Assembly: GCA_913757435.1 (NCBI GenBank)
Contig: CAJYDM010000004.1
Span: forward strand, 186,001 to 250,000
DNA: 64,000 nt
Direction of reading: 5' to 3'
DNA from: Syntrophomonas sp. DTU019
GTDB taxonomy: Bacteria; Bacillota; Syntrophomonadia; Syntrophomonadales; Syntrophomonadaceae
The notes under the pieces were generated by a model, which worked only from the letters and a program-made list of their open reading frames with translations, ran no database searches and had not been told where the DNA came from. Shown in pieces: positions 24,611 through 47,860 of the stretch (position 1 is its first letter; every line of letters begins with the position of its first letter). A program made the translations under genes and the position numbers.

Positions 24611-25453
24611 TTAGGCCACCTTATTGCTCATAGCAAGATAAAACAATATAAAACCAAAGGGCACTATGACCAGGGCTATTTTATCTGTAATAGATAGACT
24701 CTGGGAATACATATAGCTTCTCTGCGGATAAAGTCCAAAGCCACGGCTTTCCATTGAAATAGCTAAACTGTCCACCTTACTCAATGCGGTTATAACCAAT
24801 GGTACCAAAAGATATTTGACCGCTTTTATTAGTTTGCCTGGAGATAATCCCTCCATTTCAATCCCCTTCGCCATCTGGGCATTTTTCACCTGCTCTAATT
24901 CATAATGAAAAACCGGGATAAAGCGCAATGCGGTTATGAGCATGAACCCGAAACGGTAAGGCAATCCGGCCTGCATCAACGAATAAGTAAGCCGGTTGGG
25001 GTCAGTGGTAGCCACAAACAGATAGCTGGAACCGATAATATTAACAAAGCGCAGCATCATACTCAAGCCCCCAAAGAGGCCTTCTGACCAGATGGACAAA
25101 TTGAGCGGCCCCATATCTGCCTGCCATAGCAATCTGCCTTCTTGGATAACCAAAACCTGGATAATAAGTATAAACAATCCGAAGACCATGATAAAACGCA
25201 GCTTACGATAGAAAAAAGCCAGGCCTAAGCCAGCCAGACCGTAAAAAACCAGCATAATGGCGAATAAAATTAATCCTCCCACCCAGGTGGGCACCCCAAA
25301 AACAGTCAAGCTAAAGCTTAAGAGCATGACCAGTTTTACCAGGGGATGCAGTCTATGCACCCAAGAGCTGTTTTCTACGTAGGTTAGCCCGGGTAAAAAT
25401 CCTTTGATAATTGATGTGGTCCGTTTTTGGAAGGCATTATGGTAAGAACTCAT
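24611..25453 (-). CDS. ecfT: ECF transporter T component
   Basis: 280 residues, about six helices. It carries the coupling motifs of EcfT/CbiQ: AQMAKGIEMEG and SMESRGFGLYPQRS (the Ala-Arg-Gly-type helices that dock on the ATPases). Its ATG overlaps the stop of the ATPase gene (ATGA-type junction at 25450-25453), so it is translationally coupled. Last gene of the long minus-strand block, followed by the IS element. Confidence 0.93.
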   Translation of the reverse strand: MSSYHNAFQKRTTSIIKGFLPGLTYVENSSWVHRLHPLVKLVMLLSFSLTVFGVPTWVGGLILFAIMLVFYGLAGLGLAFFYRKLRFIMVFGLFILIIQVLVIQEGRLLWQADMGPLNLSIWSEGLFGGLSMMLRFVNIIGSSYLFVATTDPNRLTYSLMQAGLPYRFGFMLITALRFIPVFHYELEQVKNAQMAKGIEMEGLSPGKLIKAVKYLLVPLVITALSKVDSLAISMESRGFGLYPQRSYMYSQSLSITDKIALVIVPFGFILFYLAMSNKVA

Positions 25454-27021
25454 ATCAGGTTACCTTCTTTGCTTACGGAATGGAATGTATGGCTGGATGG
25501 CAAATATTCTTCCATCCCCATCTGTGCGAGCAAGGCCAAGGCTTCGTTTACCGGTCTATCAATGACCAGTTTCCCCTTGTCCAGGAAAAGCACCCTATCG
25601 CAATTGGCAGCCACCACATCAGGTTCATGGCAAACCATAAGGGTTATCCCACCCCGGTCGCGGTGTTCCTGTATGGCAGCCATCAAGAGGTCAAGCCGGT
25701 CGCTGTCCTGCCCCACCAGGGGCTCATCCAGGAGCAATATGCCCGGTCTGTAAGCCAGGATAGATACCAGAGTAAGCCGCTTCTTTTCCCCCAGGCTCAA
25801 GGTAAATGGATTATTTTGCTTATAAGGCCACAAATCAAAAAATTTCAGATAGTGATCTACTCTCGATGCTATCTCCTGCTCAGAATTCTGGCTCAAATTG
25901 AGTGAAGCCAGTTGGGCTTCTTTAGCAACCGTATTTTCAAAAATCTGGTGGTTGGGGTTTTGAAAGGCCAGCCCCATATCCCGGGCACGCCGGGCAACCT
26001 TTAGCCTAGATATATCCTGGCCCTGAAACTCGATAGAGCCTTGATGTGCTTTAAGAATTCCCAGGAGGACCAGTAAAAGAGTAGTCTTGCCGCTGCCGTT
26101 ATTGCCCATAATGGCGATAGTCTCGCCGGCATAAGCGGCAGAGCTTATTCCCGCCAGAATATCTCGCCCTTCATAACCGGCTCTGAGGTTTTTAACCGAT
26201 AAAAGGGGTTTACCCTGGTCCTTCTTTACAAGCTTTGGCGTTTTTCCCGCTTGCAAACCGGTCTTATTTTTAATCGGGAGGTATTTCCTATGTGACTCAA
26301 CCGAAGTGCTTTCCCCGACAATTTTGCCATTCTGCATTATTAATAACCGGTCTGTAATGGATACCAGTCTCTCCAGGCGATGTTCAATAACAATAATAGA
26401 AATATTCTGTTTTCGCAATTGTTTTAAAGTTTCCAATACTTCTGCAGTACAGAAAGGGTCCAGGTTGGCGGTCGGTTCATCCAGGATAAGCAATAGAGGA
26501 TTCATGGCCAACACAGAAGCAATGGCCACTCTTTGTTTCTCGCCCCCGGAAAGAGTATGAACCGGCCTATCCATAAGTTCCAGAGCTCCCACAGCTTGCA
26601 GGGCATAATTGATGCGTTCCTGAATCTCCTCAGCTGGTACACACAGGTTTTCTGGTCCGAAGGCTATCTCATCCCTTACGGTAAGGGTACAAAGCTGGGC
26701 TTCCGGGTCCTGCTGCACCAGACCCACAATTCCAGAAAGACCACCGGCCGGATAATCTCTGGTATTTCTGCCTTGTATACTAACCGATCCTTCCATTCTG
26801 CCAGGATAGGCGTATGGGATAAAACCGGCCAGGCATAAGGCCAGGGTTGATTTGCCACAACCGCTGGGGCCGGTGATGGTTACAAACTCGCCCGGGTATA
26901 TCTGCAGATCAATGTCTTGCAGTGCCAAAGCAGCAGATCCGCTATAAGTAAAAGATAGTTTCTGAATGTCAACCACCGGCTCTGCCAAAATCGAAATAAC
27001 CCCTTTCAGACCACAAACCAC
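25450..27021 (-). CDS. ecfA: ECF transporter dual ATPase (fused EcfA1-EcfA2, YkoD-like)
   Basis: 523 residues with two ABC domains. Domain 1: GPSGCGKST, LVQQDPEAQLCT, LSGGEKQRVAIASV, LLILDEPTANLD. Domain 2: GNNGSGKTT, LAFQNPNHQIFE, LSLGEKKRLTLVSI, ILLLDEPLVGQD. Domain 2's signature is LSLGEKKR rather than LSGGEKKR. The fusion is the form found in YkoEDC-type systems. The start may be GTG 27021, directly after the S-component stop, or TTG 26988, which has AAAGGGG upstream. Confidence 0.93.
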   Translation of the reverse strand: MVCGLKGVISILAEPVVDIQKLSFTYSGSAALALQDIDLQIYPGEFVTITGPSGCGKSTLALCLAGFIPYAYPGRMEGSVSIQGRNTRDYPAGGLSGIVGLVQQDPEAQLCTLTVRDEIAFGPENLCVPAEEIQERINYALQAVGALELMDRPVHTLSGGEKQRVAIASVLAMNPLLLILDEPTANLDPFCTAEVLETLKQLRKQNISIIVIEHRLERLVSITDRLLIMQNGKIVGESTSVESHRKYLPIKNKTGLQAGKTPKLVKKDQGKPLLSVKNLRAGYEGRDILAGISSAAYAGETIAIMGNNGSGKTTLLLVLLGILKAHQGSIEFQGQDISRLKVARRARDMGLAFQNPNHQIFENTVAKEAQLASLNLSQNSEQEIASRVDHYLKFFDLWPYKQNNPFTLSLGEKKRLTLVSILAYRPGILLLDEPLVGQDSDRLDLLMAAIQEHRDRGGITLMVCHEPDVVAANCDRVLFLDKGKLVIDRPVNEALALLAQMGMEEYLPSSHTFHSVSKEGNLI

Positions 27022-28098
27022 CTACTCTACAACCATCCGGTTAACCAGCTTTACCCAATGTCCCCCTTCATAATTACCGGCAATCAGGCGCAGCATATCA
27101 TTTTCCTTAATCAGCACCATTTGATCATCATTCAACACCTTCGGCAGATCAAATTCCACTTCATAGCCATCACTGGCCATCACTCTGAGCTTTTGAGCCC
27201 CATCCAGAGGCCTGGCTTCGGCAATGATGATCTTTAAGGGGATGCCGGTATACTCCTGGGGCGGAATGTGGCTTACCTGCCCGATCAATTCGGCAGTAAT
27301 GGTGGTTTCGTGCTGCTCAAAATAAGAAAGTTGAAATGAAAGCGGATTAGCCACGGCTCCTTCCACCTGGCAGCGCGGCCCTGTCCAGGGAGGCTCATAT
27401 ATGACCGCATAATAGTAAACCGCTCCCATAGCCAGCAGAGCCATCAAAACCCCGGTTATGGCAATCTTGACAGATGGCCGGGTTTTGGCCCTGGTACCAG
27501 TGGCTGCGGTTGCTGCAGCCATCTCTTCCTCCGCTATAGAGCTGCGAAATGGCCTGGCCTGCAGTATTATCTCCAATACGCTGTGCCCCAGACTTCCCGC
27601 CAGAAGGACGCCAGAAACAAAGGCCAACAAGCCTATAAACAATATATAAGCAATAGGCGCATGGGAAAAGTAGAGCAGTTGAAAAACAAATACATTGGAC
27701 GCAGCCGCAACTCCCCCGGCAAGTGCGTAACTCACCAAATTGTGCCGCCTGAAAACCAGGAGCACAGCATCCACCAACAAGCCCTGCGTAAATGAAACCA
27801 GAATGATAGCTACCCCATGGGTGCTGCCGGTTAAAAGCTCAATTATTCCCTTGAGCAGACCGGCGACAGTAGCAGCGCCGGGCTTTCTTATCAGTCCTGC
27901 CGCTAAAATGAACCAAAACACATGCAAACCCGATACAAACTGACCCGCACCAAAAGGAACCCCGAAAAGGCGGTTTAAAAGATTACCCAGATAACCGATA
28001 TAGGTGCTCATTACCCCGCCAATCCCGCTTAGTATAGCGATAATCAGCAGCTCCCGGTTGCCGAGGTAGTATTTTCTGCGTCTTATTTTCTCTTCCAT
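27022..28098 (-). CDS. ECF S component (YkoE-like) fused to an extracytoplasmic Oxidored_molyb-like domain
   Basis: 358 residues from ATG 28098, chosen for its GGAGG site. Residues ~15-185 are a YkoE-type S component with about six helices (LIRKPGAATVAGLLKGIIELL, FTQGLLVDAVLL). After a linker and one more helix (about 215-237), the C-terminal ~115 residues form a domain beginning CQVEGAVANPLSFQLSYFEQ and containing PLKIIIAEA, LRVMASDGYEVEF and VKLVNRMVV. That is the same reduced Oxidored_molyb-like fold as in the surface proteins of this block. YkoE partners are linked to thiamine-precursor uptake; the fusion suggests a different or extended ligand. It is 34 bases downstream of the lipoprotein gene. 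Confidence 0.8.
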   Translation of the reverse strand: MEEKIRRRKYYLGNRELLIIAILSGIGGVMSTYIGYLGNLLNRLFGVPFGAGQFVSGLHVFWFILAAGLIRKPGAATVAGLLKGIIELLTGSTHGVAIILVSFTQGLLVDAVLLVFRRHNLVSYALAGGVAAASNVFVFQLLYFSHAPIAYILFIGLLAFVSGVLLAGSLGHSVLEIILQARPFRSSIAEEEMAAATAATGTRAKTRPSVKIAITGVLMALLAMGAVYYYAVIYEPPWTGPRCQVEGAVANPLSFQLSYFEQHETTITAELIGQVSHIPPQEYTGIPLKIIIAEARPLDGAQKLRVMASDGYEVEFDLPKVLNDDQMVLIKENDMLRLIAGNYEGGHWVKLVNRMVVE

Positions 28099-28132: not shown

Positions 28133-28693
28133 CTAATCAATACGGATAGTCTTTACATAACGAACCCAGTACGGTTTGTTCACATCACCTGGCTGACGCT
28201 GCCCAACCACCAACTGTAAAGGGCTGCCCATCTCTGAGTTCAGTTCCCTGCCGTTTTCCTCCCAGGCCAGGATAATTTTTAACCTGGATTCCGGGTTTTG
28301 TTCATCAATATAATCCTCTCTCATAATCTCTTCCAGCGAGTATTCAACCCTATAATCGTCCTCGGCGATAATGGTGACCCTGGAGGCATTAGCCTTCAAT
28401 GCTACTTTTTCATTTAAGATATATCCTATCCAGATACCTTTAAAATGGGAATATCCCTTCGTCCCGTAGGAATTGATCCCGAAATAATCGGCTTCAACTA
28501 TGCCATCTGGCATGGATTTCAATTCATCCAATGTGAAGGATACCTTATCTTCAACCGCATCCCCTTCAATAACAAGCAGACCAGAAGGGGTTTTCTCTTT
28601 AGAAGCACATCCCAACCCTGAGGTACAAATAAATAAAAGAAGCATTATCAAAATGGTTATGGTTCTTCTTTTATGCCATTCAATATTACCCAT
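28133..28693 (-). CDS. Lipoprotein with Oxidored_molyb-like domain
   Basis: 186 residues from ATG 28693, which has AGGAGG nine bases before; the frame to 28765 lacks a site. A basic start and hydrophobic helix end in a lipobox SGLGC. One Oxidored_molyb-like domain follows: LVIEGDAVEDKVSFTLDELK, VTIIAEDDYRVEYSLEEI, SPLQLVVGQ, WVRYVKTIRI. The Cys that binds molybdopterin in sulfite oxidases is not present. Probably a substrate-binding lipoprotein for the ECF transporter encoded immediately downstream. Confidence 0.8.
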   Translation of the reverse strand: MGNIEWHKRRTITILIMLLLFICTSGLGCASKEKTPSGLLVIEGDAVEDKVSFTLDELKSMPDGIVEADYFGINSYGTKGYSHFKGIWIGYILNEKVALKANASRVTIIAEDDYRVEYSLEEIMREDYIDEQNPESRLKIILAWEENGRELNSEMGSPLQLVVGQRQPGDVNKPYWVRYVKTIRID

Positions 28694-28813
28694 GCCGACT
28701 GCCTCCTGTTTGAAGATAAAAAGAACCAAGGCAGGCAAAAACAAACTGATCTGCCCATAAAACAATATTTCTTACCACTATATGCGTTTTGATGAAAGCC
28801 TGATTAAAACAGG

Positions 28814-28949: not shown

Positions 28950-30300
28950 CTACAGAGCCCTAACAATAACCGTTACCGCCTCAGCACGGGTAGCTTTGCC
29001 CTGGGGGCGGACGCTGTTATCCGGATATCCAGTAATAATCCCGTTTTGTACCACAGTAGCCATGGCTTGCTGTGCCCAGCTGGAAATGCTCTGGCTGTCA
29101 ACGAAGGTAAGCTCGGCTGATGTCGGAGTCAATTGGGCAGCTTTCATTATCATGACCGCCATTTGCTCACGGGTAATAGTATCATCTGGCCCGAAGGTAT
29201 TCTCATCATAGCCATTTACAATCCCATAGGAGGCTGCGGTAGAGATCGAATCCTTGGCCCAATGCAGGCTCGTATCTGCGAAGGTATAGCCGGATTTAGG
29301 CTCCAGTGCAATTGCCTTTACCAGGATGGTAACAAATTCAGCCCGGGTGATATTGTTATCAGGCTTGAAGGTCCCATCCGGATAACCGCCGATAGCCCCC
29401 AGTGCCACCAGTTCCCGGATATTGTTTTCCGCCCAGTGGCCGGAAATGTCGGTCAGGGTTCCCGGCTGAGCCTTTGTCTGTACAAATACCGCAAACTTGG
29501 TAAAGTGATCCACCTCTACGGTTATGGTATTGCCCTTCACAGTGCCGCCAAGGTAAACCCATTCCTGTTTGTTCTGGTCATAATAATAGATGGCCGGAGT
29601 CTCGCCGGGCTGAAGCTGACTGGGGTCGAAGCTTAAAGTAATGGTTATTTTCTTCCCGAAGCTGTAGCTATCCATGCCGCCCACCCGGAACTCATATACA
29701 CTGCCAAGTAACCTGAAGCCCTGAGGTGCGGCAGGAGCTGGAGTCACTTTGGTAATGCTTACTTCAATCTCATCGGTTCCAGCAAGGGCACCAGCTGGAA
29801 TGTTCACCGAGGCCTCATCTCCGAGGCTGATTGTCCCGCCGGCTTTTGGATTGACCATAGCAGACCCGGTTGTAGAGGTAACCGGTTTCGGTCCCGCGGA
29901 ACCACCGCCGCCACCGCCGCCACCCCGCCGCCGGGCTGCCGGTGCCGGGGCCTGTCTTTACCTCCAGGTCTTTATTAACAACATCGCCACCCTCACCGGC
30001 TACGACAGTTAACGAACCGGAAGCGCCGGTTGGCACTTTAAAGGCTATGCTGTAACTACCGTTCATATTGGCCTTGGTGGCATCAAACACCACTATATTC
30101 CCCGCCTCGTCAACTACCTTTAGTGGAACCCAGGCACCTGAGGCAGTTGTACCCGAAGCGGTGATGCTGTCGCCAACCGAAGCCGTAGTTTTACTCAATG
30201 ACATCGTTATGGTAGGGGTGCTATCTGCCGAGGCAATGGCAGGGAAACACATCAATAAGAGCATGGCAATCTGTAAAAATACTATTATCCTGCGTTTCAT
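28950..30300 (-). pseudogene. SLH-domain surface protein gene split by a frameshift
   Basis: Two overlapping minus-strand frames make one protein. The first (ATG 30300) gives a signal peptide and an Ig-like domain, then reads GPGTGSPAAG and leaves frame. The second carries a Gly-rich linker, a ZU5-like domain (AGGTISLGDEASVNIPAGAL) and three SLH repeats (HWAENNIRELVALGAIGGYPDG and two more) up to the stop at 28950. Removing one base from the C run at 29923-29926 joins them as SPAAGGGGGGGG and restores a protein of about 449 residues. SLH repeats anchor proteins to pyruvylated cell-wall polymer. It could be a sequencing error, a slippage or phase-variable tract, or real decay. The sister protein at 43983 has the same ZU5-SLH tail intact. 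Confidence 0.8.
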
Positions 30301-30374
30301 CTTAGACCATTCACTCCTTTTTCTTTTAGTCTGGTTGCTCGTCTTATTGGCTTGCCAAATAATTGTAGAAAGCG

Positions 30375-31946
30375 TCAATCCTGCAGTATCACCGGATTAT
30401 GGTCAATCGCATTAGTCAACTCATCCACAACATAGATCTTGATCACATCGCCAGTTTCCACATTGAAACCAGCCTGAGCATAATCGAGTTGATCAAAGTC
30501 AGCTCTAGTCGAGTTGATCTGAAGCTGGCTGCCATTTCTCCAATGAGAAAAGACCACGGTTTCTTCGCCATCGTGAGCAACTAGCGAAGTAATCATGACC
30601 TTAAGCTTCTTAAATCCTGAAACACCGTTTTTTACAGTCAAGGTGCAAATCCCTTCTGGAGTAACCCCAGGGATAAAACCCGTATCAGTCTCATCTGAAA
30701 TGACCTGGTAATGGGGATCTAGCCCTGGAAGCGAACCTTTATTGAGCGCGTAGGATTCAATCAGTTCACCATCGGCTTTCCTGGAGGTCAAAGTCAAAAC
30801 ATCATCTTTGAGTTGAATTACCTGATAATTGCTGCCGGTCTCCTCTTTAGCTATGTAGGGGAAGCCTTGACCGAGAGCATAAGTTTTGGAACCTGAATTC
30901 CCCATCACATAGACTATCCCATAGGAATCGGTGACTACTTCTTCCTCGTAAATGGGATGAGTGCGCATATAGACATGTTGATGGCCTACAAAAACCATAT
31001 CTACGTGATTTTGCTCAAGTATAGGCACCCAGTGTTCGCGAAGCCCATCATCTATGGTTTTGCTATCATCAAAGTTTTGGTAAGGAGGGTGATGAAAGAC
31101 TGCAAACTTCCACTCCTTAGTGGTGGTTTGCAAATCCTCTTGCAGCCATTGTTTGACAGTATCGGTGATGACGTTACTAGTATCCAAAACAGCAAAATGC
31201 GCATCACCATAATCAAAAGAATAAAAACAATTGCCAAATAAGCCGTGAGGCCCATTATCAGGCAGGGCCAAAAACTCGAAAAACAGCTCGCCGTCGTGGT
31301 TACCCCTGGCAGGCATCATTGGTATTCGGGAAAATACCCCGGTTGCTGCACTAAGGAATTCTTCCCATTCAGTATAATTGTTGTCATCATTGGTCAAATC
31401 CCCCCCCAATAAGGCAAACTTGATCTGGGGGTTTTCATTATATACCTCACTTAGCATACTCTTCCACCCGGCATATCCTTCTTGAACATCGCCCAGATAT
31501 AAGAAGTAGAACTCATCCGTAGCGGCAGAGGTTTTGAAAGATAATACCTCGCTCCACGCTTCGTCCCGTCCTACCCGATAGGTATATAGTGTATTAGGTG
31601 TAAGTCCAGTAAGCGTAGCTGTGCAGCGGTAATTATCACTTCCGGCAAACGTTGCCAGGACAGCATCGCTTTGGCTGGCAGGTGCAAAATCGCCATTATA
31701 TTCTGCAGCCTCGATATACTGTACTTTATTGGCATCGTTATGCGGTGTCAGCCAGGTTATGGTCTGGGTCGTAGCCGGATCCTCAGACCAGGTCAGAATA
31801 ATCTGCTCGGGTCCACCTATTTCCTCAGCCCAAGCAACCGCAGGGGCAAGACCGAAGCAAACTAAGGTCAAGATAAATACAATCAGGCAGCTCATCCTGC
31901 TAGCTTCACGCACTTTTGAACTTTTGAAGCCTAATTCAGATATCAT
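30375..31946 (-). CDS. Secreted purple-acid-phosphatase-like metallophosphoesterase
   Basis: 523 residues from ATG 31946 (AAAGGAG site). Signal peptide (about 15-40), then a fibronectin-like PAP N-domain (IILTWSEDPATTQTITWLTP), then the calcineurin-type core with all metal motifs: GDVQ, GGDLTND, GNHD, FHHPPY and GHQHVYMR. It should hydrolyse phosphomonoesters or diesters outside the cell with two metal ions. The C-terminal ~90 residues (ending DELTNAIDHNPVILQD) are closely similar to the C-terminus of the 2503-residue protein upstream and may be an attachment or sorting module. It sits in the middle of the envelope block. Confidence 0.9.
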   Translation of the reverse strand: MISELGFKSSKVREASRMSCLIVFILTLVCFGLAPAVAWAEEIGGPEQIILTWSEDPATTQTITWLTPHNDANKVQYIEAAEYNGDFAPASQSDAVLATFAGSDNYRCTATLTGLTPNTLYTYRVGRDEAWSEVLSFKTSAATDEFYFLYLGDVQEGYAGWKSMLSEVYNENPQIKFALLGGDLTNDDNNYTEWEEFLSAATGVFSRIPMMPARGNHDGELFFEFLALPDNGPHGLFGNCFYSFDYGDAHFAVLDTSNVITDTVKQWLQEDLQTTTKEWKFAVFHHPPYQNFDDSKTIDDGLREHWVPILEQNHVDMVFVGHQHVYMRTHPIYEEEVVTDSYGIVYVMGNSGSKTYALGQGFPYIAKEETGSNYQVIQLKDDVLTLTSRKADGELIESYALNKGSLPGLDPHYQVISDETDTGFIPGVTPEGICTLTVKNGVSGFKKLKVMITSLVAHDGEETVVFSHWRNGSQLQINSTRADFDQLDYAQAGFNVETGDVIKIYVVDELTNAIDHNPVILQD

Positions 31947-32065
31947 ATCAGCTGCTCCTTTATTCATATATCTCCAACAGGGAGTGTCGGGCAAAACCTT
32001 TCAGCCTAATAGCCTCCAGGTTTTGCCCCGTCTTTTCACTCCTTAACAATACTACGTTTGAAGCC

Positions 32066-35000
32066 TTATTGCAGAATCACAGGGTTATGGTCTTTAGCAT
32101 TGGTCAATTCATCCACGATATAGACCTTGATCACATCCCCGGCTTGCACATTAAAACCAGCCTGGGCAGTATCAACCTCGTCAAAGTCGGCTACAGTAGA
32201 GTTGATCTGCAACTGACTGCCATTCCTTAGATGGGTAAAGACTACGGTCTCATCGCCGCTATGAGCAAATACCGGTTCAATATTGACCGTGAAGTAATTG
32301 AACCCGGAAACTCCAGCATTAACAGTCATAGTCTTTATACCGTCCTGGGTTTCCCCTATGTCATAAGTCGAATCAGGGACAGGGGTTACTGTATAGACCG
32401 GGTTGCCGGTTGCTGCGCTTACTAACTCAATACTTACAATATTGCCGATTGAACTTGACCCGCTCACCGCAGGACCCACCAGGCGCAACGGCCATTTGTC
32501 ATCAGTTTCGGGAATGGGGAATTCATCAAGCAGGTTGGCAATAATGTAGTCACTATTACGGATAATGTCGGCACTATCTATAGTTACTGTAGCACCATCA
32601 CCAGCCGTAATTACAACCTGGTACCCTGATTGAGCCAGTTCATCATTGAAGGCCTCATTAGAATGCTGGTCGGCATCATCAACAAATCCCACCAGGAACC
32701 AGAGGGGCATGCCTTCCCACTTACGTCCTTTAGTATCGGTGTAGCTTGCCTTGTGATTGGCACCGAACTGGCAGGCAAGAGCTGTTTCAAAATAGGTTTT
32801 GCTGATATCACTACTTATACCACCAATTTTGGTTCCATCCAGCTCCAGTTTCCAATCACCCTGGGGTACGGTGTATACTCTGATGGTAGTAATATACTTC
32901 GCGGACAACCCGGCACAGGAAGGATACATGATTTTATTATCTTCGTAGTAATGCCAGTATGCTTCCGGAAGAGTCTCGTGCATATCCATTTGATGATATA
33001 CTTTGTCTTCTGGTGTAAAGTACAAGCGCATACCATCTTTATAGTTCGGAACATAATCACCGTCAGCATACCAGGCTAAAATAGCATCCCCCTGGCGGGC
33101 ATATACTGATGGATCAGGATATATGGATGAATAAGGAAGCCTGGTCTCATAGCCATCAGAAGCTACCAAGACGATTTCTGTGCCGGTTCCCATGTCACCG
33201 ACAAGGCTGCAGAGATCACTCAGGCGGGTGCCTTTAATCGCATTGGCTATCTTGTAACCACCCAGACCGGTCTCATTCTCATCCCACATATCATCCGGGT
33301 CAAAGGTGACTCCCTGGAATTTGTATACTGTTTCTCCGTCTCCAATCACATCGAATTGCTCTATCATGTCAAGATAATTGAGGGTCTCTTCAGCTATGAT
33401 GGTGGTCCCGTCCTCTCCATACTTTACAATCCGGAGATCAGGGATGGCACCGCTGCTCTCAAAGGAGGTCAGCTCGATTTCGGCTATCTTTCCTACGCTT
33501 TTACCGGTCAGGGCTCCTGCATTGGCAACACCAGAACCTACCAGGCGCAGCGGCCAGGTATCAGTAAGCTCGGCACCATTGCATTTGTTCGCAATGATAT
33601 AGTCGCTGCTCCTATTGATATCCAGACTGTCGAAATCAACACTATAGCCGTCTGAAGCCTTTACCAGAACTTTGTAACCGGCTACAGCCTGGCTAAAGTC
33701 ATAACTGTGAGGCTGACGGTCATCTACCCAGCCGGCCAGTAACCACAGGGGTATACCTGACCAGACATTTCCATCCCCGTCAATCCATTCTACCAGGTGA
33801 CCCGAATTCGGGCAGGCAAGCCCTTCTTCGAATTCCGCCTGGGAAATCACATCACTGATCTTACCCTTCAGAGTGAGGTTCCAACTACCGGGCTCTGCCG
33901 GCGGGGTCTGCAGTTCAAGAATCTCAATGCGGGCGATATTGCCGACTGCCAAGCCACCAAGGGAACCATCATCTTTAGTAACACCGTCACCTACCAGGCG
34001 TAGAGGTGCTGAAGTGCCTGTCAGTGGCTCACCATCGCATTTGTTAGCCACGATATAATCATTGCTGTTGGCTACATCCGAACCAGCAAAAGTCTTGAAG
34101 TAAGTTCCACTTCCATCAACTACCTTCACGGTGTAGTTTTTAGCCCGAGTTTCATTAAATGTCCAGTGATTGCCGCTTTCGATGTCATCCACTGCACCTA
34201 AGAGCACCCACAGTGGAACACCGGACCATGTATTGTCATTAATGTCGGTCCATTCTTGGTAGTGACCAGAGCCAGTACATGCCAGTCCTTCTTCAAACTC
34301 TTTCTGGGTGATGGTATCCCCGATTTCCCCAATCATTTCCAGGGTCCATCCAGCGGGCGGCTCAGGCAGACCAGACAGCTCAATGCGGACTATATTGCCT
34401 ACCTGTTGCCCACCCGAGATAGCTGAACCTTTCAGATGCAGCGGCCAGCAGTCTTTATTCTTGTCACCGATTGTAAGGGGCAGTGGTTCCCCGTTTAACG
34501 TATTAGCAACGATATATGCGTCGCTGCGAGCGATATCAGCACTGTCAAGTACTGTTGACCAGCCATCGCCTGCTATAACCTTTACTTCATAGCCTGCGGC
34601 GGCCAGTTCATCATTGAAGTTAAAATGTCCGTCATCAGGATCATCATCTACGATACCAACTAACAGCCACAGGGGCATGCCTCCCCAGACGTTACCTTCA
34701 TCATCAGTCCAGGTCGCATAGTGTGATGAAGAACAGGTCAACCCTTGCTCGAAGTAAGCCTTGGTAACGGTCTCATCCTTGGCCCCGGAAAGCTGCAGGG
34801 TCCAGTCGGTAGGCACCACACCGTTAGTAACGGTGGTTTTCACCGCTGCTGTGGCTGCTGCCTTAACCGCATTAAAGTCGCTCTCATCTTCAACATCCGC
34901 ATAATAGAATTCGACCTTGTTACCATCTGCCAACTGCATCAGGTTTAAAGCATCATCAGGATTGTTATAGCCATCTTTTAAAGCGCCGTTTACATAGGCA

Positions 35001-38000
35001 TACCATGCGCTGCCGTTTTTCACATAATTGTATTCGGCTACATTATCCAGCAGCAGGGCACCGGAATTGCCATAATTCTTATCGGTAACAGCGTAGGTGA
35101 ATCCGCCAGCGATTGCGGCTTTGTGCAGCGCACCCAGTGGCGTGTTCTCATTCACCGTGTATTCCGTCTCTGAGTTGTAGGCGGTTACTGTGAATGCCTC
35201 TTCCGGATCCAGGTTTACGGTTCCGTCATAAAGAACATCAATAGTGGATAATGACACCACCGTCTTAACAGCTGCAGTTGCTGCTGCCTTGACTGCATTA
35301 AGGTCGGTGGGGTCGGAAATATCGGCTGCATAATAAAACTCAACCTTGTCTCCATCGACCAGCTCAATGACATTCAGTCCAGCGGGCGTATTCTGATACC
35401 CATCTTTGTAGACATCATTTACATATGCATACCAGTATCCCGGAGATTTGCGTTCGTACTCTCCTACATCGTCCAGCAGGAGTACCCTGTCATAGGACCA
35501 GCGCTTGTCAGACAAAACATAGGTAAAACTACCGGCCTCGGCGGCTGCCTGCAGGGCTCCCAGCGGGGTATTCTCATCAATTGTATATTGATTAGATCCA
35601 ACCGTTACTGTGAAGGTCTCCTCAGGATTCAATGTAACTGTACCCTCATAGAGGATGTCAATTGTCGGTCCACCAGAGCCTTCTACAACAGTTACAGTTA
35701 TCGAATCGGTTTTATTCCCGTCTTCGGTTGTAACCGTAATACTAGTAGTACCTTCTGCTACTGCGGTTACCAGACCGGTTGCACTTACCGTAGCCACAGC
35801 TTCATCAATGCTGCTCCAGCTTACATTCTTGTTAGTGGCATCCTCAGGTTCCACCACAGCAGTTAGCTGGACTGTCTGGCCAGTTTCCAGTTCTTGGTTG
35901 CCTTCCGTAATGCTCACGCCGGTAACGGGTATCGATGGTGGAGTGTTTACAGTGAATACAGCAAACATGGTATTGGGAGCAACTGTCGTACGTACATTAT
36001 AAGTACCGGCGGGCACTTCTGGAACAGTAATGGAGACCGGAGATATAGTGCCACTGGCATCAGTGCTTACATCTGCCCTGGGCTCATCCTCGTTCCAAGT
36101 GCCGTCATCGTTAGAGTCAAACCAAATATACTTGCCGGTTTGATTAGTCACTAAACCGTAACCTGTAACATCTATGCTGCTGCCAACTATCCCCGAGCCA
36201 GGATTCAGTACCAGGCCAGCAATCAAATATGTTACTGAATTAGCTTTGAGACCACAGGCCGGTATATCTGCCAATACCTGATATAGGCCCGGTGGTGCCG
36301 ATGGTACATACAGGCCGGGGCTACTGGCTCCCCCAGCAGTTGTGGTTGTTACTGCTGCCTTATTCTCGTCTTCATCCCAAACTTCGTTACCATTAGTGTC
36401 AAACCAGACATATCCGTCAACATTGGCTGAAAAACCTGCCAGATTCATACCGATATTGGTTTCGGGGTTACCTCTGGGAGTGGAAATTTTAATACCTGGA
36501 ACAATACCGATGCTGGCACAAGCCTCTATAGTATCATCGCGACCAATGTCAAGAAGGATGTTGTAGATACCTGTCGGCGATGATGGCCAAGACATATTAT
36601 TTACTGATATTGTACCCTCAGCTGATGTATTACTAGACTTGTAACCGCCATCATCGTATATCCCGTTGCCATTACGGTCTACAAAAAGCCGGTAGGGAGT
36701 ACTGGCCGGAAAACCGTTTCCGGTAACTGTGATATATCTAGGAGTTGTTCCCTGCTCCAAGCTGTTTCCATATTTTGGGCTAACGATTATGCCACTTCCG
36801 GTGACAGTAAATACGGCGCTAGCTTTAATACCGCCTATATCTGCCCGCACCGTATAATCTCCCGTGCTTACTGACGGAACAGTCAGGCTTGTGAGCAGGG
36901 GAATAGCTCCATCTTCGTCAGTATTTACAGCAACTGACGGTTCTTCATCGTCAAAGACTTCATTATCGTTTATGTCAAACCAAATAACTCCAGCAGCTCC
37001 AGCATTAAAGCCGCTGATGGAAATGAACGTGGTCGCCCCCGGGATTCCGGAATTGCATTGCAACTGTATCTGTGGACCAGCCGGAATCGAGTTGACAGTG
37101 ATGCTGTCGGTGAAGTTGCCATCTTCGGTTGTAACCGTAATGCTGGCAGTACCTTCTCCTACTGCAGTCACCAGGCCGGTTTCACTTACCGTTGCCACAG
37201 TTTCATCACTGCTGCTCCAGGTTGCGTTCTTATTCGTAGCATCCTCAGGCTCCACAACTGCAGTTAGCTGGAATGTCTGACCAATCTCTAATTCCTGATT
37301 ACCTTCGCTTATGCTCACGCCGCTAACAGCTACTGGCGGTGGAGTGATAACCCCATCCTGCCAAGCTCCTATCAAGGGATAGTTGTCACTATAGCTGGCA
37401 ATGGTGGTGTATGGAGTATCTGCTATACCGTTACCATCGTTATCAGCTCCGGTATAATCGCTCCAGTAATTGCCGAGTTGGCTGCTGTACTGAGTACCCT
37501 TGTAGGTGTAGCTTATCTCAGTTGAAGAATTCCAGGAGTTTTCGGTATTGCCATTAAATCCTTCGGACAACTGAGTTGTATTATCCCTAAAGTTATTCTG
37601 ATAGAATATGTTGCCAACTGGTTTAGTGGCAAGTTCCAAACCGGTGGTATTGTTGGAGATAATATTATTATTGAAAGTATTGGTATCAGCAGCTTTAATT
37701 CTGATACCCATTTGGTTTGAATCTAATGTATTGGAACTAAAAATATTGCTGTCAGTACTGTCAAAAAGGTTCAAACCTTTCCCTGATTGGTTGTTTGCAC
37801 AAGTGTTATCGCTTATAGTGTTACCGGCTGCATAGCTAAGATAGATACCGTCGCTGCCACAGACATTACAGGTGTTGTTGCTAACCGTATTGTTATTACT
37901 GTTAACGGTTATTCCTCGATTATTATTACTAAAAACATTATTCGTTATCGTACAAGATCCGCTGGGCTGACCTGAAATGTAAGTAAGTTTTATGCCCGAT

Positions 38001-39577
38001 TTGTCTGTTCCTGTTGCTCCGGAAGCCGTAAACCCTTCAATAGTGACGTTTGCGGCAGTCACCTTAAATACATCGGCATTTGTATTGGCTGCCTGTACTA
38101 TAGTCTGCGCTGCCCCGTTCTCAGACTCAATGACCAGGCTCTTATCCACGGTTATGTTCTCAGTGTATGTCCCGTCTTTTACGATGATGGTATCACCAGC
38201 ATTGGCTGCTGTGACAGCATCCTGTATTGTGCTGAAGTCAGCTCCGCCGGAATCATCTACATACCAGGTCTGGGGCGCTGGATCTGTAACCGTGATGTAG
38301 CCCTCTTTGATTTCCTCATCACTGTCCAGATCACTGGTTACGGTAAGTTTGACCGTGTATGTTCCCACTGCGGTATATTCATAGAAAGGATTCTGTTCAG
38401 TACTATCTACTACGCCATCATTGTCAAAATCCCAGGCCCATGAAGTGGGGTTTCCAGCTGACTCATCGGTGAATTGTACCGTAAGGGGTGCTGGGCCACT
38501 GGTTTTATCGGCACTAAAAGCAGCCGTAAGCAAAATCGGTGCTGCATCCATTGACTGAGTTACGGTAGCCATGCTGTACCCCTGGGCACTGACTGCTACC
38601 TTATAATCACCGGGAGTATTAAATACGTCTGCATTTATACTGATAGTTGCTTCGCTGATGGAATACTGTCCTTCAGTCAACTGTTTTCCATTAACCGTAA
38701 TACGGCTAATACCTGTTCTCCAGCCCTCATCATCAGTGAAGGTGATGTCTGCTGCCTGGCCAATTTGGTTATTTTCTGTATCGGCAGTCAGATCTGGAGG
38801 TGTTAGTACTGTCTCATTACTGTATATGTTTATAAAAGCTACGTTCTGTACTGATAAACCGGTGGTGGTAGGATATTCACCGGAGTAGTAGTACCAGTAT
38901 TGAGAATCTGCAGCCTCATGCCATTCCCAGTTGCCAAATACGTGGTAATCCCCTGAAGGTAAACCCGCAACATCAGTCGGTCCTTCTTTAGATGAAGCTG
39001 CGGCAAACCAGACCAGGCGCATGCCGTCGGTGTATCCGCTATCTGGATGTTTTCCGTCCTGATACCAGCAGACCACCATTGGCCCTTCGCGATCCGGATC
39101 ATAATTGTAAACGTTTTTATAGGCGAATCTTTTCTTAAAGCCATCAGAGGCTTTTATTTCTACCTCTTCACCATCTGCCATACCTCCTACCAAATTGCAG
39201 AGGTGCTTCAAGTTATTACCCTTCACCGCCCCCATATCTTTGGTATCCCAGTTCCTATCTTCTTCCTCGTTCCAGCGAAGCCGCTCTAGCTCCTCCGGAT
39301 CATCAGCAGGTTCATCAATAAAGACCGGGCCCTGATGATAGTAACGGGTTTCCCCATCACCCAGTACTGGTATATTGTCTGGGTCCATCAGCCAGTGATA
39401 ATCAACTTTAAGCTGGTCAATTATAGTTTTACCATCCTCAGCATACTTGGTAATGGTGAGTTCAGTAGTTGCCGCACTGGCTGGCTCAGGTACCACCATA
39501 CCTGCACACTGGAATAGGAACGCGAAAACTAACGCAATAGTTAGGCTTTTTCCCCAACCTTTTTTCTTAAAAAACAT
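32066..39577 (-). CDS. Giant secreted multidomain protein (2503 aa)
   Basis: Signal peptide 1-36. Domains in order (approximate residues): large Oxidored_molyb-like domain 38-255; DUF1533/Shr haem-interacting-like 261-345; PKD 350-435; NosD-type beta-helix 437-740; Big_2 746-830; four related Ig/IPT-like repeats from 832, 927, 1026 and 1121; Big_2 1219-1300; two DUF4430 (transcobalamin C-terminal-like) domains 1306-1410 and 1442-1545; three Oxidored_molyb-like domains from about 1590, 1742 and 1896; a second copy of the N-terminal type from 2044; another from 2239; and a C-terminal domain 2412-2503 shared with the phosphoesterase. No SLH repeats, LPXTG or C-terminal membrane helix. It looks like a large extracellular binding scaffold. 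Start ATG 39577 has AAAGGAG; a riboswitch-like leader with terminator lies 105-255 bases upstream. Confidence 0.88.
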   Translation of the reverse strand: MFFKKKGWGKSLTIALVFAFLFQCAGMVVPEPASAATTELTITKYAEDGKTIIDQLKVDYHWLMDPDNIPVLGDGETRYYHQGPVFIDEPADDPEELERLRWNEEEDRNWDTKDMGAVKGNNLKHLCNLVGGMADGEEVEIKASDGFKKRFAYKNVYNYDPDREGPMVVCWYQDGKHPDSGYTDGMRLVWFAAASSKEGPTDVAGLPSGDYHVFGNWEWHEAADSQYWYYYSGEYPTTTGLSVQNVAFINIYSNETVLTPPDLTADTENNQIGQAADITFTDDEGWRTGISRITVNGKQLTEGQYSISEATISINADVFNTPGDYKVAVSAQGYSMATVTQSMDAAPILLTAAFSADKTSGPAPLTVQFTDESAGNPTSWAWDFDNDGVVDSTEQNPFYEYTAVGTYTVKLTVTSDLDSDEEIKEGYITVTDPAPQTWYVDDSGGADFSTIQDAVTAANAGDTIIVKDGTYTENITVDKSLVIESENGAAQTIVQAANTNADVFKVTAANVTIEGFTASGATGTDKSGIKLTYISGQPSGSCTITNNVFSNNNRGITVNSNNNTVSNNTCNVCGSDGIYLSYAAGNTISDNTCANNQSGKGLNLFDSTDSNIFSSNTLDSNQMGIRIKAADTNTFNNNIISNNTTGLELATKPVGNIFYQNNFRDNTTQLSEGFNGNTENSWNSSTEISYTYKGTQYSSQLGNYWSDYTGADNDGNGIADTPYTTIASYSDNYPLIGAWQDGVITPPPVAVSGVSISEGNQELEIGQTFQLTAVVEPEDATNKNATWSSSDETVATVSETGLVTAVGEGTASITVTTEDGNFTDSITVNSIPAGPQIQLQCNSGIPGATTFISISGFNAGAAGVIWFDINDNEVFDDEEPSVAVNTDEDGAIPLLTSLTVPSVSTGDYTVRADIGGIKASAVFTVTGSGIIVSPKYGNSLEQGTTPRYITVTGNGFPASTPYRLFVDRNGNGIYDDGGYKSSNTSAEGTISVNNMSWPSSPTGIYNILLDIGRDDTIEACASIGIVPGIKISTPRGNPETNIGMNLAGFSANVDGYVWFDTNGNEVWDEDENKAAVTTTTAGGASSPGLYVPSAPPGLYQVLADIPACGLKANSVTYLIAGLVLNPGSGIVGSSIDVTGYGLVTNQTGKYIWFDSNDDGTWNEDEPRADVSTDASGTISPVSITVPEVPAGTYNVRTTVAPNTMFAVFTVNTPPSIPVTGVSITEGNQELETGQTVQLTAVVEPEDATNKNVSWSSIDEAVATVSATGLVTAVAEGTTSITVTTEDGNKTDSITVTVVEGSGGPTIDILYEGTVTLNPEETFTVTVGSNQYTIDENTPLGALQAAAEAGSFTYVLSDKRWSYDRVLLLDDVGEYERKSPGYWYAYVNDVYKDGYQNTPAGLNVIELVDGDKVEFYYAADISDPTDLNAVKAAATAAVKTVVSLSTIDVLYDGTVNLDPEEAFTVTAYNSETEYTVNENTPLGALHKAAIAGGFTYAVTDKNYGNSGALLLDNVAEYNYVKNGSAWYAYVNGALKDGYNNPDDALNLMQLADGNKVEFYYADVEDESDFNAVKAAATAAVKTTVTNGVVPTDWTLQLSGAKDETVTKAYFEQGLTCSSSHYATWTDDEGNVWGGMPLWLLVGIVDDDPDDGHFNFNDELAAAGYEVKVIAGDGWSTVLDSADIARSDAYIVANTLNGEPLPLTIGDKNKDCWPLHLKGSAISGGQQVGNIVRIELSGLPEPPAGWTLEMIGEIGDTITQKEFEEGLACTGSGHYQEWTDINDNTWSGVPLWVLLGAVDDIESGNHWTFNETRAKNYTVKVVDGSGTYFKTFAGSDVANSNDYIVANKCDGEPLTGTSAPLRLVGDGVTKDDGSLGGLAVGNIARIEILELQTPPAEPGSWNLTLKGKISDVISQAEFEEGLACPNSGHLVEWIDGDGNVWSGIPLWLLAGWVDDRQPHSYDFSQAVAGYKVLVKASDGYSVDFDSLDINRSSDYIIANKCNGAELTDTWPLRLVGSGVANAGALTGKSVGKIAEIELTSFESSGAIPDLRIVKYGEDGTTIIAEETLNYLDMIEQFDVIGDGETVYKFQGVTFDPDDMWDENETGLGGYKIANAIKGTRLSDLCSLVGDMGTGTEIVLVASDGYETRLPYSSIYPDPSVYARQGDAILAWYADGDYVPNYKDGMRLYFTPEDKVYHQMDMHETLPEAYWHYYEDNKIMYPSCAGLSAKYITTIRVYTVPQGDWKLELDGTKIGGISSDISKTYFETALACQFGANHKASYTDTKGRKWEGMPLWFLVGFVDDADQHSNEAFNDELAQSGYQVVITAGDGATVTIDSADIIRNSDYIIANLLDEFPIPETDDKWPLRLVGPAVSGSSSIGNIVSIELVSAATGNPVYTVTPVPDSTYDIGETQDGIKTMTVNAGVSGFNYFTVNIEPVFAHSGDETVVFTHLRNGSQLQINSTVADFDEVDTAQAGFNVQAGDVIKVYIVDELTNAKDHNPVILQ

Positions 39578-39681: not shown

Positions 39682-39720
39682 GTGAATAAAAAATCCGACT
39701 GCAAAGAAATCAGCCGGACG
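39682..39720 (-). terminator. Leader terminator before the giant gene
   Basis: On the minus strand TCCGGCTG and CAGTCGGA pair (8 bp, one G-T) around a 9-base loop, followed by TTTTTTATT. It follows the aptamer-like leader directly and precedes the gene by about 105 bases, so it should act as an attenuator. Confidence 0.75.
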
Positions 39721-39832
39721 CTACTATCCGTTATGACTCCTTTCCAACAGGGGAGGCACACTCGTTTCCAGGTGAACCCTAACGGCCTGAGAACCATAGT
39801 ATCAACCTTAGGCATCACAAGCTCGGAGCAAT
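39721..39832 (-). promoter_or_regulatory. Riboswitch-like leader, Moco/Tuco type (copy 1)
   Basis: Minus strand, 5' to 3': GCTCCGAGCTTG, TGATGCCTAAGG, AGGCCGTTAGGG, a GGAAAC-capped hairpin, TGCCTCCCC, GGAAAGGAGT and TAACGG closing on CCGTTA. The same blocks in the same order occur at 47861-47972, also before a surface-protein gene and also with a terminator. The CUCCGAGC...GCCUCCC...GAAA...GGAGU order resembles the molybdenum/tungsten-cofactor riboswitch as I remember it; the class assignment is inference, the shared leader is directly visible. Confidence 0.55.
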
Positions 39833-39838
39833 ATTTTT

Positions 39839-41167
39839 TTATCGGGTAATAGTTATCTGACCACCATTGGGGTCATATACCACCTCCGCTTCCAGAGTCT
39901 CACTTATAAACCGCAGGGGAACAAAAGTACGACCAGGTGGCAGAATCTCAGGAGCACAGTCAATAGTCTGTTTTTCACCGTTGACCTGAACCTGGTTGGA
40001 ATCAATAGTAAGGATAATTACCTTATCACCATAAGTAATGGTTACCTGTCTGCTTTCAGGGTTCCAACCAACTTTAGCACCTAAGGCTTCACCTACGAAA
40101 CGCACCGGTACCAGTGTACGACCGGCTTCAGCGTTGATGAACGGCTCAGCTTCCAGGATATAGGGGGTGTCGTTAACACTAGCTGCTTTTGCACCAATGG
40201 CAAGCTTAATCATCAGTGGTAGACTACCTGATGACCCGTCAGCAATCCGATATTCAAAGGTGACCACATCGCTATCCAACTTCCCGGGACCAATGGTAAC
40301 AGCCTTGATGGTTACGTTTTCAGTGATAGGCCCTATAGGGCGGTTGATATTACCCAAAACATCAGCCCGGGCTGTCCACCACCGGCTGGCGATCCAGTTA
40401 TATATAGGGCTGTTCATTGTTGGGATGCTGCCATCAATGGTGTAATGGATCTTATCATCATCACTATGAATATTGCTCAAAGCCACCATAGTTCCTGGAG
40501 GAACTGTGCCGCCAACCGGGTTGGCCTGAGGAGCATCCCACTTTTCGGGCGGGGTGGTTAAGACCTCAATTTTACTGAGATACTTTACAAACAAATTTCC
40601 GGTCTGCTCAGTAACCGTGCGCTGACCCAGCATCAGTAAGAGGGAGTTCAAATCGTTCATATATTTGGGATTATCGCTTCCTTCTACACTGATCAAGCCG
40701 ACAATTGGTTCTACCTCCACCTTCCCCGAGGGGTTGCCGGGCGAATGCCCATCAGCATCACCACCAGTTTTGAAATTCGGGAAACGATAACGCTTATCCT
40801 CGAATAGTTCTTTGACCGTGATGGTGACGGTATAACCATCGGCAGAGGTGAATCTAAGCAAAGTAGCCTCATCACGTATACCTGCCTGGTTTAGCAGTTC
40901 ATGCAGTTTGACACCCTCTCCTACATACCACTTTTTAGTAGGCCAGGTGTTTATGCAGCTATATACATACTGATGCTGCTCCATTTGCCTAAGTTGATCC
41001 AGGCTTAATACTAATGGCTTTTCCACCCCATCTCCGGTGATTTCCAGAGCATCTGATGCAGCTAATACTTCGTTTGGTGATGCAAGACAAATACTAGCAG
41101 CCAGCAACAGAATACTCAGTAGGGCAATAGTAAAACCAAAGAAACTCCTTTTTGCTCTGGTTGGCAT
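39839..41167 (-). CDS. Surface protein: Oxidored_molyb-like, chitobiase-like and copper-amine-oxidase N domains
   Basis: 442 residues. Signal peptide 1-37. Oxidored_molyb-like domain about 38-215 (LEITGDGVEKPLVLSLDQLRQM, YSCINTWPTKKW, GVKLHELLNQAGI, FTSADGYTV, KYLSKIEVL). A chitobiase C-terminal-like module follows (KIHYTIDGSIPTMNSPIYN), and then the stalk-type domain TLVPVRFVGEALGAKVGW...VPLRFISETLEAEV, which in Firmicutes often binds the cell wall. The motif YSCINTWP retains a Cys near where molybdopterin is bound in sulfite oxidases, unlike most siblings. Start ATG 41167 with AGGAGG. The gene ends just before the leader RNA of the giant gene. Confidence 0.87.
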   Translation of the reverse strand: MPTRAKRSFFGFTIALLSILLLAASICLASPNEVLAASDALEITGDGVEKPLVLSLDQLRQMEQHQYVYSCINTWPTKKWYVGEGVKLHELLNQAGIRDEATLLRFTSADGYTVTITVKELFEDKRYRFPNFKTGGDADGHSPGNPSGKVEVEPIVGLISVEGSDNPKYMNDLNSLLLMLGQRTVTEQTGNLFVKYLSKIEVLTTPPEKWDAPQANPVGGTVPPGTMVALSNIHSDDDKIHYTIDGSIPTMNSPIYNWIASRWWTARADVLGNINRPIGPITENVTIKAVTIGPGKLDSDVVTFEYRIADGSSGSLPLMIKLAIGAKAASVNDTPYILEAEPFINAEAGRTLVPVRFVGEALGAKVGWNPESRQVTITYGDKVIILTIDSNQVQVNGEKQTIDCAPEILPPGRTFVPLRFISETLEAEVVYDPNGGQITITR

Positions 41168-41239: not shown

Positions 41240-41548
41240 TTATTCGGTCAGCATGAATAACTTTCCGGTTGCGGGGTCTCTGTAAACCGTGCCCATTCTC
41301 TCGTAGACCTCGCCCTGGCCCTGAGTTTTGATCAGATCTTCACGTATCTCTGGGGCATCGGTCATCTCCCGGCCTTGTTCCAGGTTAACTCTCTGCCCCA
41401 CACCAAAATCAACGTTCCAGTTAATAGCCAGGGCCAGCATCAAACCACAGGCAAAAACCAGCATGGCATCAACAATATTGATGGCGCCCTCCAGAGGATT
41501 TACTTCTTCTTGCCTCCAGCGGCTATTTCTCCTCAATCCTCCGCGCAC
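41240..41548 (-). CDS. DUF2149 protein (ExbD-like partner)
   Basis: 102 residues, one transmembrane helix (NIVDAMLVFACGLMLALAI) near the N-terminus followed by an outward-facing tail. NPLEGAINIVDAMLVFACGL is the DUF2149 signature. In methanogens DUF2149 genes accompany MotA/TolQ/ExbB-type channel genes and metal-related genes. The size and topology mimic ExbD/TolR. GTG 41548 lies inside the channel gene with GGAGGTG nine bases before, so translation is coupled by a 26-base overlap. Confidence 0.85.
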   Translation of the reverse strand: MRGGLRRNSRWRQEEVNPLEGAINIVDAMLVFACGLMLALAINWNVDFGVGQRVNLEQGREMTDAPEIREDLIKTQGQGEVYERMGTVYRDPATGKLFMLTE

Positions 41549-42173
41549 GTTCCAACACCTCCGTTAGACTTTCCATTATGGCTTCCAAGGTACTCAAATA
41601 ATCTTCATACCATCTTTTGCGATACCGGGAGACAGCAAAAGCAATACCTCCGGCAGCCAAACCGGTTACTGTAGCATCAAAGGCAGTAAGCAGTGAATCG
41701 GCCAGTATTCTGGGATCGCCCTCACCCAGAGCTATCAAACCTGGTCCTAGTGGAATCAAAGTTGCCATTAACCCCAACATAGGACCGAGTCGGGTTACCA
41801 GATCAGTTCGATTAGTGATTCGTACATAATTCAATTCTTCGCTAGTCAACAGCCGACGCGCCAAAGCCTGCATTGAAGCAGACGGCAAATCTTTATTTTG
41901 GATCAATTCGCTGATGGCAGCCTTTTGGCGTCGGAATAACCGAATGCCTTCAACCTGTTTAATGATTTCTGCAACATCTTTTTCCTGAAATGTATTGATC
42001 AACTCGGGCAAATTGACCTTCATCTGGCGCCGTTCGGTCAAGGCTTCTACTAAGAGACCGCCCAATTCCATCAATGATAAAGCTAACATGAATAACAGTA
42101 CGGCAATGGTAGGTATTAATAAACCGGATGAAATGGCATGCATCATATCCTTTAACGGCAGTAAGATAGTCAT
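41523..42173 (-). CDS. MotA/TolQ/ExbB-like proton channel
   Basis: 216 residues, three membrane helices (about 15-40, 130-150, 165-185) with a cytoplasmic helical loop between the first two. The conserved core LGPMLGLMATLIPLGPGLIAL and LADSLLTAFDATVTGLAAGGIAFAVS matches the TolQ/ExbB/MotA family, which uses the proton gradient to move a partner protein. Three bases separate it from the upstream proline-rich surface protein and its end overlaps the DUF2149 gene: a three-gene energising unit. Confidence 0.9.
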   Translation of the reverse strand: MTILLPLKDMMHAISSGLLIPTIAVLLFMLALSLMELGGLLVEALTERRQMKVNLPELINTFQEKDVAEIIKQVEGIRLFRRQKAAISELIQNKDLPSASMQALARRLLTSEELNYVRITNRTDLVTRLGPMLGLMATLIPLGPGLIALGEGDPRILADSLLTAFDATVTGLAAGGIAFAVSRYRKRWYEDYLSTLEAIMESLTEVLERARRIEEK

Positions 42174-47645: not shown

Positions 47646-47777
47646 TCATCCTCCACCCCTTTTTTTACAAAATGCCTTCATCAAAATATCAGTGTCCGGT
47701 TATGGCGTAACTAACCCAACCCCCATTCACTTAATAGCAAAAACTGAAGGAAAAATAAGTAAAAGAACTAACTTAAT

Positions 47778-47810
47778 CAACAAAAACCCCCTGCACGGAC
47801 AGGAGGTTTT
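47778..47810 (-). terminator. Leader terminator before the SLH surface protein gene
   Basis: Minus strand AAAACCTCCTG, loop TCCGTG, CAGGGGGTTTT: an 11-bp stem with one G-T pair, then TTTTTGTTG. It lies between the aptamer-like leader and the gene. Confidence 0.85.
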
Positions 47811-47860
47811 CCATAAAAGCTATAAATAGCAGGAACACCGATAACGGTTTTAGCACCTAC

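Follow-up and report, generated by a model that had tools for sequence, protein, structure and literature searches.

The locus described here resembles, in its different parts, several known systems. YkoEDC (PDB 5edl), a group-I ECF system that transports thiamine in Bacillus subtilis, combines an S component with its own EcfT and ATPases; the description of its pocket in PMC5037267 has Glu77 and Gln95 hold the aminopyrimidine of thiamine, Trp49 stack, and Tyr46 and Asp131 hold the thiazole. S components are presented as ending at H6 in the structural account of PMC11109136. PruR (7kos, 7rkb, 7kom) is a small extracytoplasmic domain of the sulfite-oxidase (SUOX) fold; the sections devoted to it in a review (PMC13259868) state that it has no Cys, with Trp instead, that it binds pterins, and that its pocket is probably too small for whole Moco. 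QrtT, an ECF importer of Clostridioides difficile, is portrayed in PMC11477304 as a riboswitch-controlled system that salvages pathway products (preQ1/queuosine) with the help of processing enzymes. Burroughs et al. (2007), in the part of PMC1796856 concerned with transcobalamin-like (SLBB) surface proteins, described CbiO/CbiQ operons encoding such proteins, assigned these systems to vitamin B12 and noted that in Syntrophomonas the SLBB proteins are fused to sulfite-oxidase-like domains. On the regulatory side, the treatment of Moco/Tuco RNAs by Regulski et al. (2008; PMC2408646) links those without P3 to the tungsten cofactor, and mentions, as cases outside its scheme, two tungsten-type riboswitches of Syntrophomonas wolfei that precede 'putative Moco-utilizing sulphite oxidase' genes. 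The transporter classes set out in an RNA-regulon survey (PMC3766115) include molybdenum/tungsten transporters, with no Moco uptake in the coenzyme-uptake class. Our search of the open-licence PMC literature found no report of a Moco or molybdopterin importer, nor of an S component that carries an outside domain.

We analysed a window of 64,000 nucleotides, the whole stretch of DNA taken from Syntrophomonas sp. DTU019, in which all positions below are numbered unless stated otherwise (Table 1). An ORF on its minus strand (27022-28140), read from the ATG at 28098, which matches the start of most relatives, encodes a protein of 358 aa. The sequence-only reading had taken it for an ECF S component extended by an added helix and an extracytoplasmic domain, and both profile searches and the structure prediction it called for agree. 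The S part is recognised by PF09819 (YkoE/'ABC_cobalt'; aa 30-146, E 2e-21, 76.7 bits) and has B. subtilis YkoE (5edl) as its best PDB sequence match (E 4.9e-14). In the AlphaFold2 model, residues 11-202 superpose on the same structure with Z 20.1 (188 aligned, rmsd 3.6), giving the six-helix fold of S components. The model places TM1-6 at 14-181, the added helix (TM7) at 208-233 and an alpha/beta domain at 240-358, with modest confidence (whole-model pLDDT 63.7, pTM 0.42; residues 281-358 mostly 74-83). As in YkoEDC, the S component comes with its own EcfA and EcfT, whose genes adjoin it in the window and at most loci and are not adjacent to it in L015. Unlike in other S components, H6 is not the C-terminal end: TM7 and a domain of ~119 residues come after it, a variant feature that leaves the S fold itself intact.

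The C-terminal domain matches PF00174 (Oxidored_molyb; aa 257-371 of the longer ORF, E 1.3e-4) with 22.0 bits, slightly under the curated cut-off of 24 bits; in a whole-genome search, the frame of the fusion reaches 26.4 bits with its neighbours, above cut-off. Structure comparison of the modelled residues 235-358 returns the SUOX fold, with sulfite dehydrogenase 2blf at Z 13.4, SoxC at 12.8 and PruR at 12.3, as does Foldseek. The domain is predicted to lie outside the cell. Each of 27 linkers of fusions (26 distinct loci, L012 and L088 coming from the same genome; L101 was left out) contains a hydrophobic 19-mer (Kyte-Doolittle 1.59-2.53), preceded by 2-14 K/R residues and followed by 0-3, which by the positive-inside rule indicates outside placement. 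By these predictions, the C-terminal part is neither cytoplasmic nor a member of an unrelated family, the two outcomes that the sequence-only reading had named as contrary to it.

The domain shares its fold with the PF00174 enzymes sulfite oxidase, SoxC and SorA, and its end, LRLIAGNYEGGxWVK, resembles SoxC (RLVVPGWEGNMWVK). However, it has only ~120 residues and no further enzyme domain, and no metal-ligand Cys of the SUOX enzymes was found in the corresponding stretch, located from weak alignments, of the eight fusion sequences that reach it and of eight lipoproteins. A small extracytoplasmic SUOX-fold domain without metal-binding Cys is also what PruR is. PruR works through DcpA or a sensor kinase in the membrane; the counterpart here is an ECF importer, to which the domain is fused, and the neighbouring genes are ECF genes instead of those for the DcpA or DTB regulator of PruR operons.

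The same domain recurs, as had been claimed from the sequence, in the lipoprotein encoded just upstream and in the surface proteins: PF00174 is above cut-off in the lipoprotein, in 39839-41167 and in the 2503-aa protein, and the genome search places it in 42177-43808. The lipoprotein model (pLDDT 85.4) likewise has the SUOX fold, with Z 14.8 to SoxC and 14.5 and 14.4 to PruR. A profile built from 17 domains of lipoproteins and surface proteins has PruR 7kom as its top PDB sequence match (E 0.0012), and the aromatic residue of their INTW/INSY motif aligns, weakly, with a PruR Trp. Four places came out of the whole-genome PF00174 search, a minimum, since the 2503-aa protein, in which hmmscan detects the domain, is not among them. 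These domains may resolve the S. wolfei exception of Regulski et al.: such genes may encode cofactor receptors, not enzymes. The surface protein with S-layer homology is split in the window by a frameshift in a glycine-rich stretch (an assembly error or real) and is a single ORF in L010.

Table 1. Features of the importer cluster and its control elements (window positions unless stated otherwise).
Feature	Position	Strand	Evidence
EcfT (CbiQ family)	24611..25453	minus	PF02361 E 9.5e-34
EcfA-EcfA' fused ATPase	25450..27021	minus	Pfam
Fusion: ECF S component (YkoE/PF09819), TM7, predicted extracytoplasmic SUOX/PruR-fold domain	27022..28098	minus	Pfam, models, structure matches
Lipoprotein (lipobox GC) with SUOX/PruR-fold domain; probably translated from ~28690	28133..28765	minus	PF00174 35.3 bits
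S-layer-homology surface protein, two ORFs via frameshift near 29.9 kb	28950..30378	minus	ORFs, Pfam
Exported metallophosphoesterase, purple-acid-phosphatase type	30375..31994	minus	PF16656, PF00149
Surface protein of 2503 aa; domains PF00174, Shr-like HID, NosD, PKD and Big_2	32066..39577	minus	PF00174 44.4 bits
Terminator-like hairpin and U-run after riboswitch 39720..39840	39685..39719	minus	-12.2 kcal/mol, z -4.3
Moco/Tuco riboswitch RF01055, without small third hairpin	39720..39840	minus	Rfam 68.7 bits
Surface protein with PF00174 and copper-amine-oxidase-N-type domains	39839..41167	minus	PF00174 34.6 bits
MotA/TolQ/ExbB-family membrane protein amid surface-protein genes	41523..42173	minus	PF01618 26.8 bits
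Surface protein; PF00174 domain, C-terminal membrane helix seen by eye	42177..43808	minus	Genome search, alignment
Surface protein of 1220 aa; PF00174-like domains (two, INTW-type) and SLH-like repeats	43983..47645	minus	Alignment and ORF
Terminator-like hairpin and U-run after riboswitch 47863..47981	47777..47815	minus	-17.8 kcal/mol, z -4.1
Moco/Tuco riboswitch RF01055, variant without small third hairpin	47863..47981	minus	Rfam 75.6 bits
Three tandem Moco/Tuco riboswitches (L030), just outside the window	G000:C4:183438-183913		Before Tup-type genes (by eye)

The fusion is old and not a chance product. Searching for it elsewhere, as the sequence-only reading had proposed, gave a total of 27 distinct genomes from at least eight families, with a conserved neighbourhood across the loci of the relatives. 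It is full-length in 21 of the 398 genomes of a phylum sample (families f1, f23, f30, f39, f51, f55, f64 and f80) and present in 5 of the 63 genomes of the class, once truncated at a contig end; the G249 fusion has an in-frame TAA. Three loci from named genomes (L013, L015, L016) were added to reach 27, and L017 (S part only, contig end) and G405 (spread over two contigs) were left out. Named carriers include, besides Syntrophomonas sp. DTU019, Syntrophothermus sp. UBA1445 and a Dethiobacter alkaliphilus MAG. In four split relatives, the domain sits on a protein of its own, which has a membrane helix at its N terminus.

Two elements that the sequence-only reading did not have, the sulfite-oxidase/PruR identity of the domain and the Moco/Tuco riboswitches, point to the class of the ligand. 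One of the two riboswitches in the window precedes the gene of the 1220-aa surface protein, and the other that of the 2503-aa protein, the first of the gene run leading to the fusion. Both are followed by a hairpin and U-run, as expected of transcription control; these come from direct folding and are absent from the list of the terminator scan. Among the matches listed, a same-strand RF01055 lies upstream of at least 14 of the 19 fusions that have at least 5 kb of upstream sequence (the remaining 8 have less), at 2.4-4.7 kb in at least 12 cases and at ~11.7 kb in the window and in G364. By riboswitch counts, a same-strand RF01055 would occur by chance within 5 kb in ~0.2% per genome. The counts of fusions with a riboswitch take no account of shared ancestry, the 12 close cases amounting to four families (f23, f39, f51, f64). 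For the other 5 of the 19, no upstream RF01055 was found among the matches listed in the contigs (G384, G063), the whole genome (G118, G447) or 10 kb (L015). The linkage extends to split-type systems. In G440, an RF01055 ends 20 bp before the S gene, which is followed by genes for a TM-anchored PF00174 protein (29.5 bits), two EcfA, EcfT and MobB, and the riboswitch is upstream in two of eight further split loci scanned (L077, L080). None of the ten riboswitch alignments inspected (two from the window, eight from other loci) has the short hairpin that would come after the first arm and that we take to be P3. The importer very probably belongs to the Mo/W-cofactor regulon.

The riboswitches also bear on what the names of the Pfam families (ABC_cobalt, CbiQ) and the report of Burroughs et al. 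would suggest, namely a scavenger of vitamin B12 or cobalt made of a CbiO/CbiQ-type ECF and transcobalamin-like surface proteins. The combination of surface proteins and ECF genes is indeed shared with those systems. However, neither a cobalamin nor a TPP riboswitch was found above cut-off in the window and 30 further loci (some overlapping), the riboswitches that are present point to the Mo/W cofactor, and the S component is YkoE-like. We dropped this reading as highly improbable.

Further riboswitches were seen in the course of the scans. The genome of Syntrophomonas sp. DTU019 has 12 RF01055 matches, 11 of them above cut-off, and the best one (L031, 6373-6494 of that locus, minus strand) has no same-strand ORF of at least 100 aa downstream in the stretch fetched. 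An aldehyde-dehydrogenase-like gene (by eye) follows a Moco riboswitch in L108, L109 and L110; its product may take the place of a tungsten enzyme when the cofactor runs low. A c-di-AMP riboswitch (RF00379, 99.9 bits) lies at 5370-5499 of the window.

The S pocket was compared with that of YkoE in 26 fused-type sequences (25 distinct). The position of Glu77 is Glu in all 26, and that of Gln95 is Gln in 16 and Glu in 10, whereas the position of Trp49 is invariably His, Tyr46 is replaced by Ser, Ala or Gly, and Asp131 by Val, Ile, Ala or Leu. Only two of the five thiamine-pocket residues are thus kept, and these losses, together with TM7, the outside domain and a Moco/Tuco instead of a TPP riboswitch, separate the fusion from YkoEDC. 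The fused-type pocket would fit a ligand with an aminopyrimidine ring but without a thiazole, e.g. a pterin; this is a hint only, because the Glu/Gln pair may be general in YkoE-like proteins. None of the five residues is kept in the nine split-type sequences, which belong to the same regulon, so the S ligand could differ.

These residues weigh on the possibility that the outside domain is a PruR-DcpA-like pterin sensor gating the importer, whose S ligand would be something else, e.g. HMP or thiamine. PruR does bind its pterin outside the membrane and act on a membrane partner, in the terms of the review (PMC13259868), and YkoE itself binds thiamine according to its pocket description (PMC5037267). 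The thiazole contacts and the stacking Trp are lost, however, and Mo/W-cofactor riboswitches are in control where a TPP riboswitch was not found. Thiamine and HMP were set aside as ligands on the pocket residues and the absent TPP riboswitch, and we regard gating by a sensor as quite unlikely.

The main rival to a pyranopterin ligand is the import of tungstate or molybdate, either as such or bound to a small chelator, with SUOX-fold domains turned into receptors for oxyanions or metal chelates. Control by the riboswitch fits a metal importer too. In the same genome, RF01055 occurs three times in tandem before a Tup-type tungstate ABC transporter, two further copies precede FecCD-type ABC genes (both by eye), and in L081 a PF00174 lipoprotein precedes a Peripla_BP_2/FecCD-type transporter under RF01055. 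On the other hand, Tup appears to cover tungstate import in this genome, the S pocket retains both YkoE residues that bind the aminopyrimidine, characterised SUOX-fold members bind pterins or pterin cofactors, and the phosphoesterase would have no obvious role. We consider metal import improbable. PF00174-type lipoproteins adjoin Peripla_BP_2/FecCD-type ABC transporters in L081, L107 and L113 (in L081, one lies directly after the Moco riboswitch), and these transporters may be a second importer type using the same receptor domain.

Two kinds of enzyme genes accompany the importer. Kin of the metallophosphoesterase were found by tblastn at 22 of 28 loci, window included (the 27 fusions and L017), and not at L011 and L013 (both contig ends), L014, L015, L016 and L093. 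All eight phosphoesterases checked start with a hydrophobic export-type segment. MobB is encoded after EcfT in six loci (L013, L077, L079, L080, L086, L112; identified by phmmer, and by Pfam for L013 and L112).

The AOR family of tungsten-pterin enzymes is present in all 26 genomes searched, with one member at the window edge (G000:C4:249129). Neither MoaA nor MoaC was found in 5 of 25 carrier genomes (G405 included), all five of which carry AOR genes: G074 (94% complete), G303 (97%) and G370 (72%) belong to one genus, G384 (79%) and G405 (87%) to a second, and the set takes in both members searched of two genera. Assembly incompleteness predicts 1.65 such gaps (P for at least five = 0.018), and a count limited to the 23 genomes with a completeness of 85% or more gives three (P 0.10), so that the excess is suggestive, a weak sign and not a proof. 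MoaC alone would mislead for G280, where MoaA is at a contig end, and a search for MoaE (PF02391) left 48 of 53 genomes without a match, controls included, too many for MoaE to serve as a sign of auxotrophy. Since 20 of the 25 have MoaA and/or MoaC, most carriers can make cPMP themselves, and uptake would usually be a supplement.

As a set, the product riboswitch, the receptor fold of a pterin-binding type, the phosphoesterase, MobB and the importer look like a salvage route for a cofactor, comparable to that of QrtT for preQ1. We propose, with about as much confidence as reserve, that the fusion binds the substrate for a group-I (YkoEDC-like) ECF importer, that this importer belongs to the Mo/W-cofactor regulon and that it most likely takes up a pyranopterin. 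For the ligand itself, we give a pyranopterin an even chance. The most likely candidates are molybdopterin, with or without its metal (tungsten or molybdenum), and intermediates that precede it, e.g. cPMP; the small PruR pocket would favour a form smaller than whole Moco, e.g. cPMP. Under this proposal, riboswitches sensing the cofactor, here of the tungsten-linked variant, would turn the cluster on when it is short. The long surface proteins and the lipoprotein would capture the ligand through their PruR-type, putatively pterin-binding domains, and the exported metallophosphoesterase may remove phosphate or a nucleotide. The last SUOX-fold domain, tethered by TM7, would then take the ligand and offer it to the S pocket, a hand-over that the sequence-only reading had suggested and that is plausible; EcfA and EcfT would perform the import, and enzymes such as MobB would use the product. 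Several points count against a pyranopterin, beyond the fact that riboswitch control suits a metal importer too: most carriers keep MoaA/MoaC, the PruR pocket is small, the split-type S components share none of the five YkoE pocket residues, and the riboswitch and the phosphoesterase are missing from the 5 of 19 and 6 of 28 cases given above. If the proposal is true, this would be the first dedicated importer of the Mo/W cofactor or a pyranopterin precursor, with harvest at the surface, trimming by a phosphoesterase, a pterin-binding domain welded to the S component and some lineages living without making the cofactor, a combination we think possible if somewhat doubtful. Its ligand would set it apart from QrtT, for which the account in PMC11477304 describes neither receptor domain nor surface relay. 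The cluster supplies named genes for testing the import of the Mo/W cofactor.

Other genes lie in or beside these clusters. A MotA/TolQ/ExbB-family protein and a small partner recur among the surface-protein genes of L015, L016, L078, L087, L089 and L091. In the window, a transposase-like ORF (22692-24404, by eye) is directly downstream of EcfT on the opposite strand, and the L015 fusion (10001-11083 of that locus) is followed by a ModD-like gene (by eye) on the other strand.
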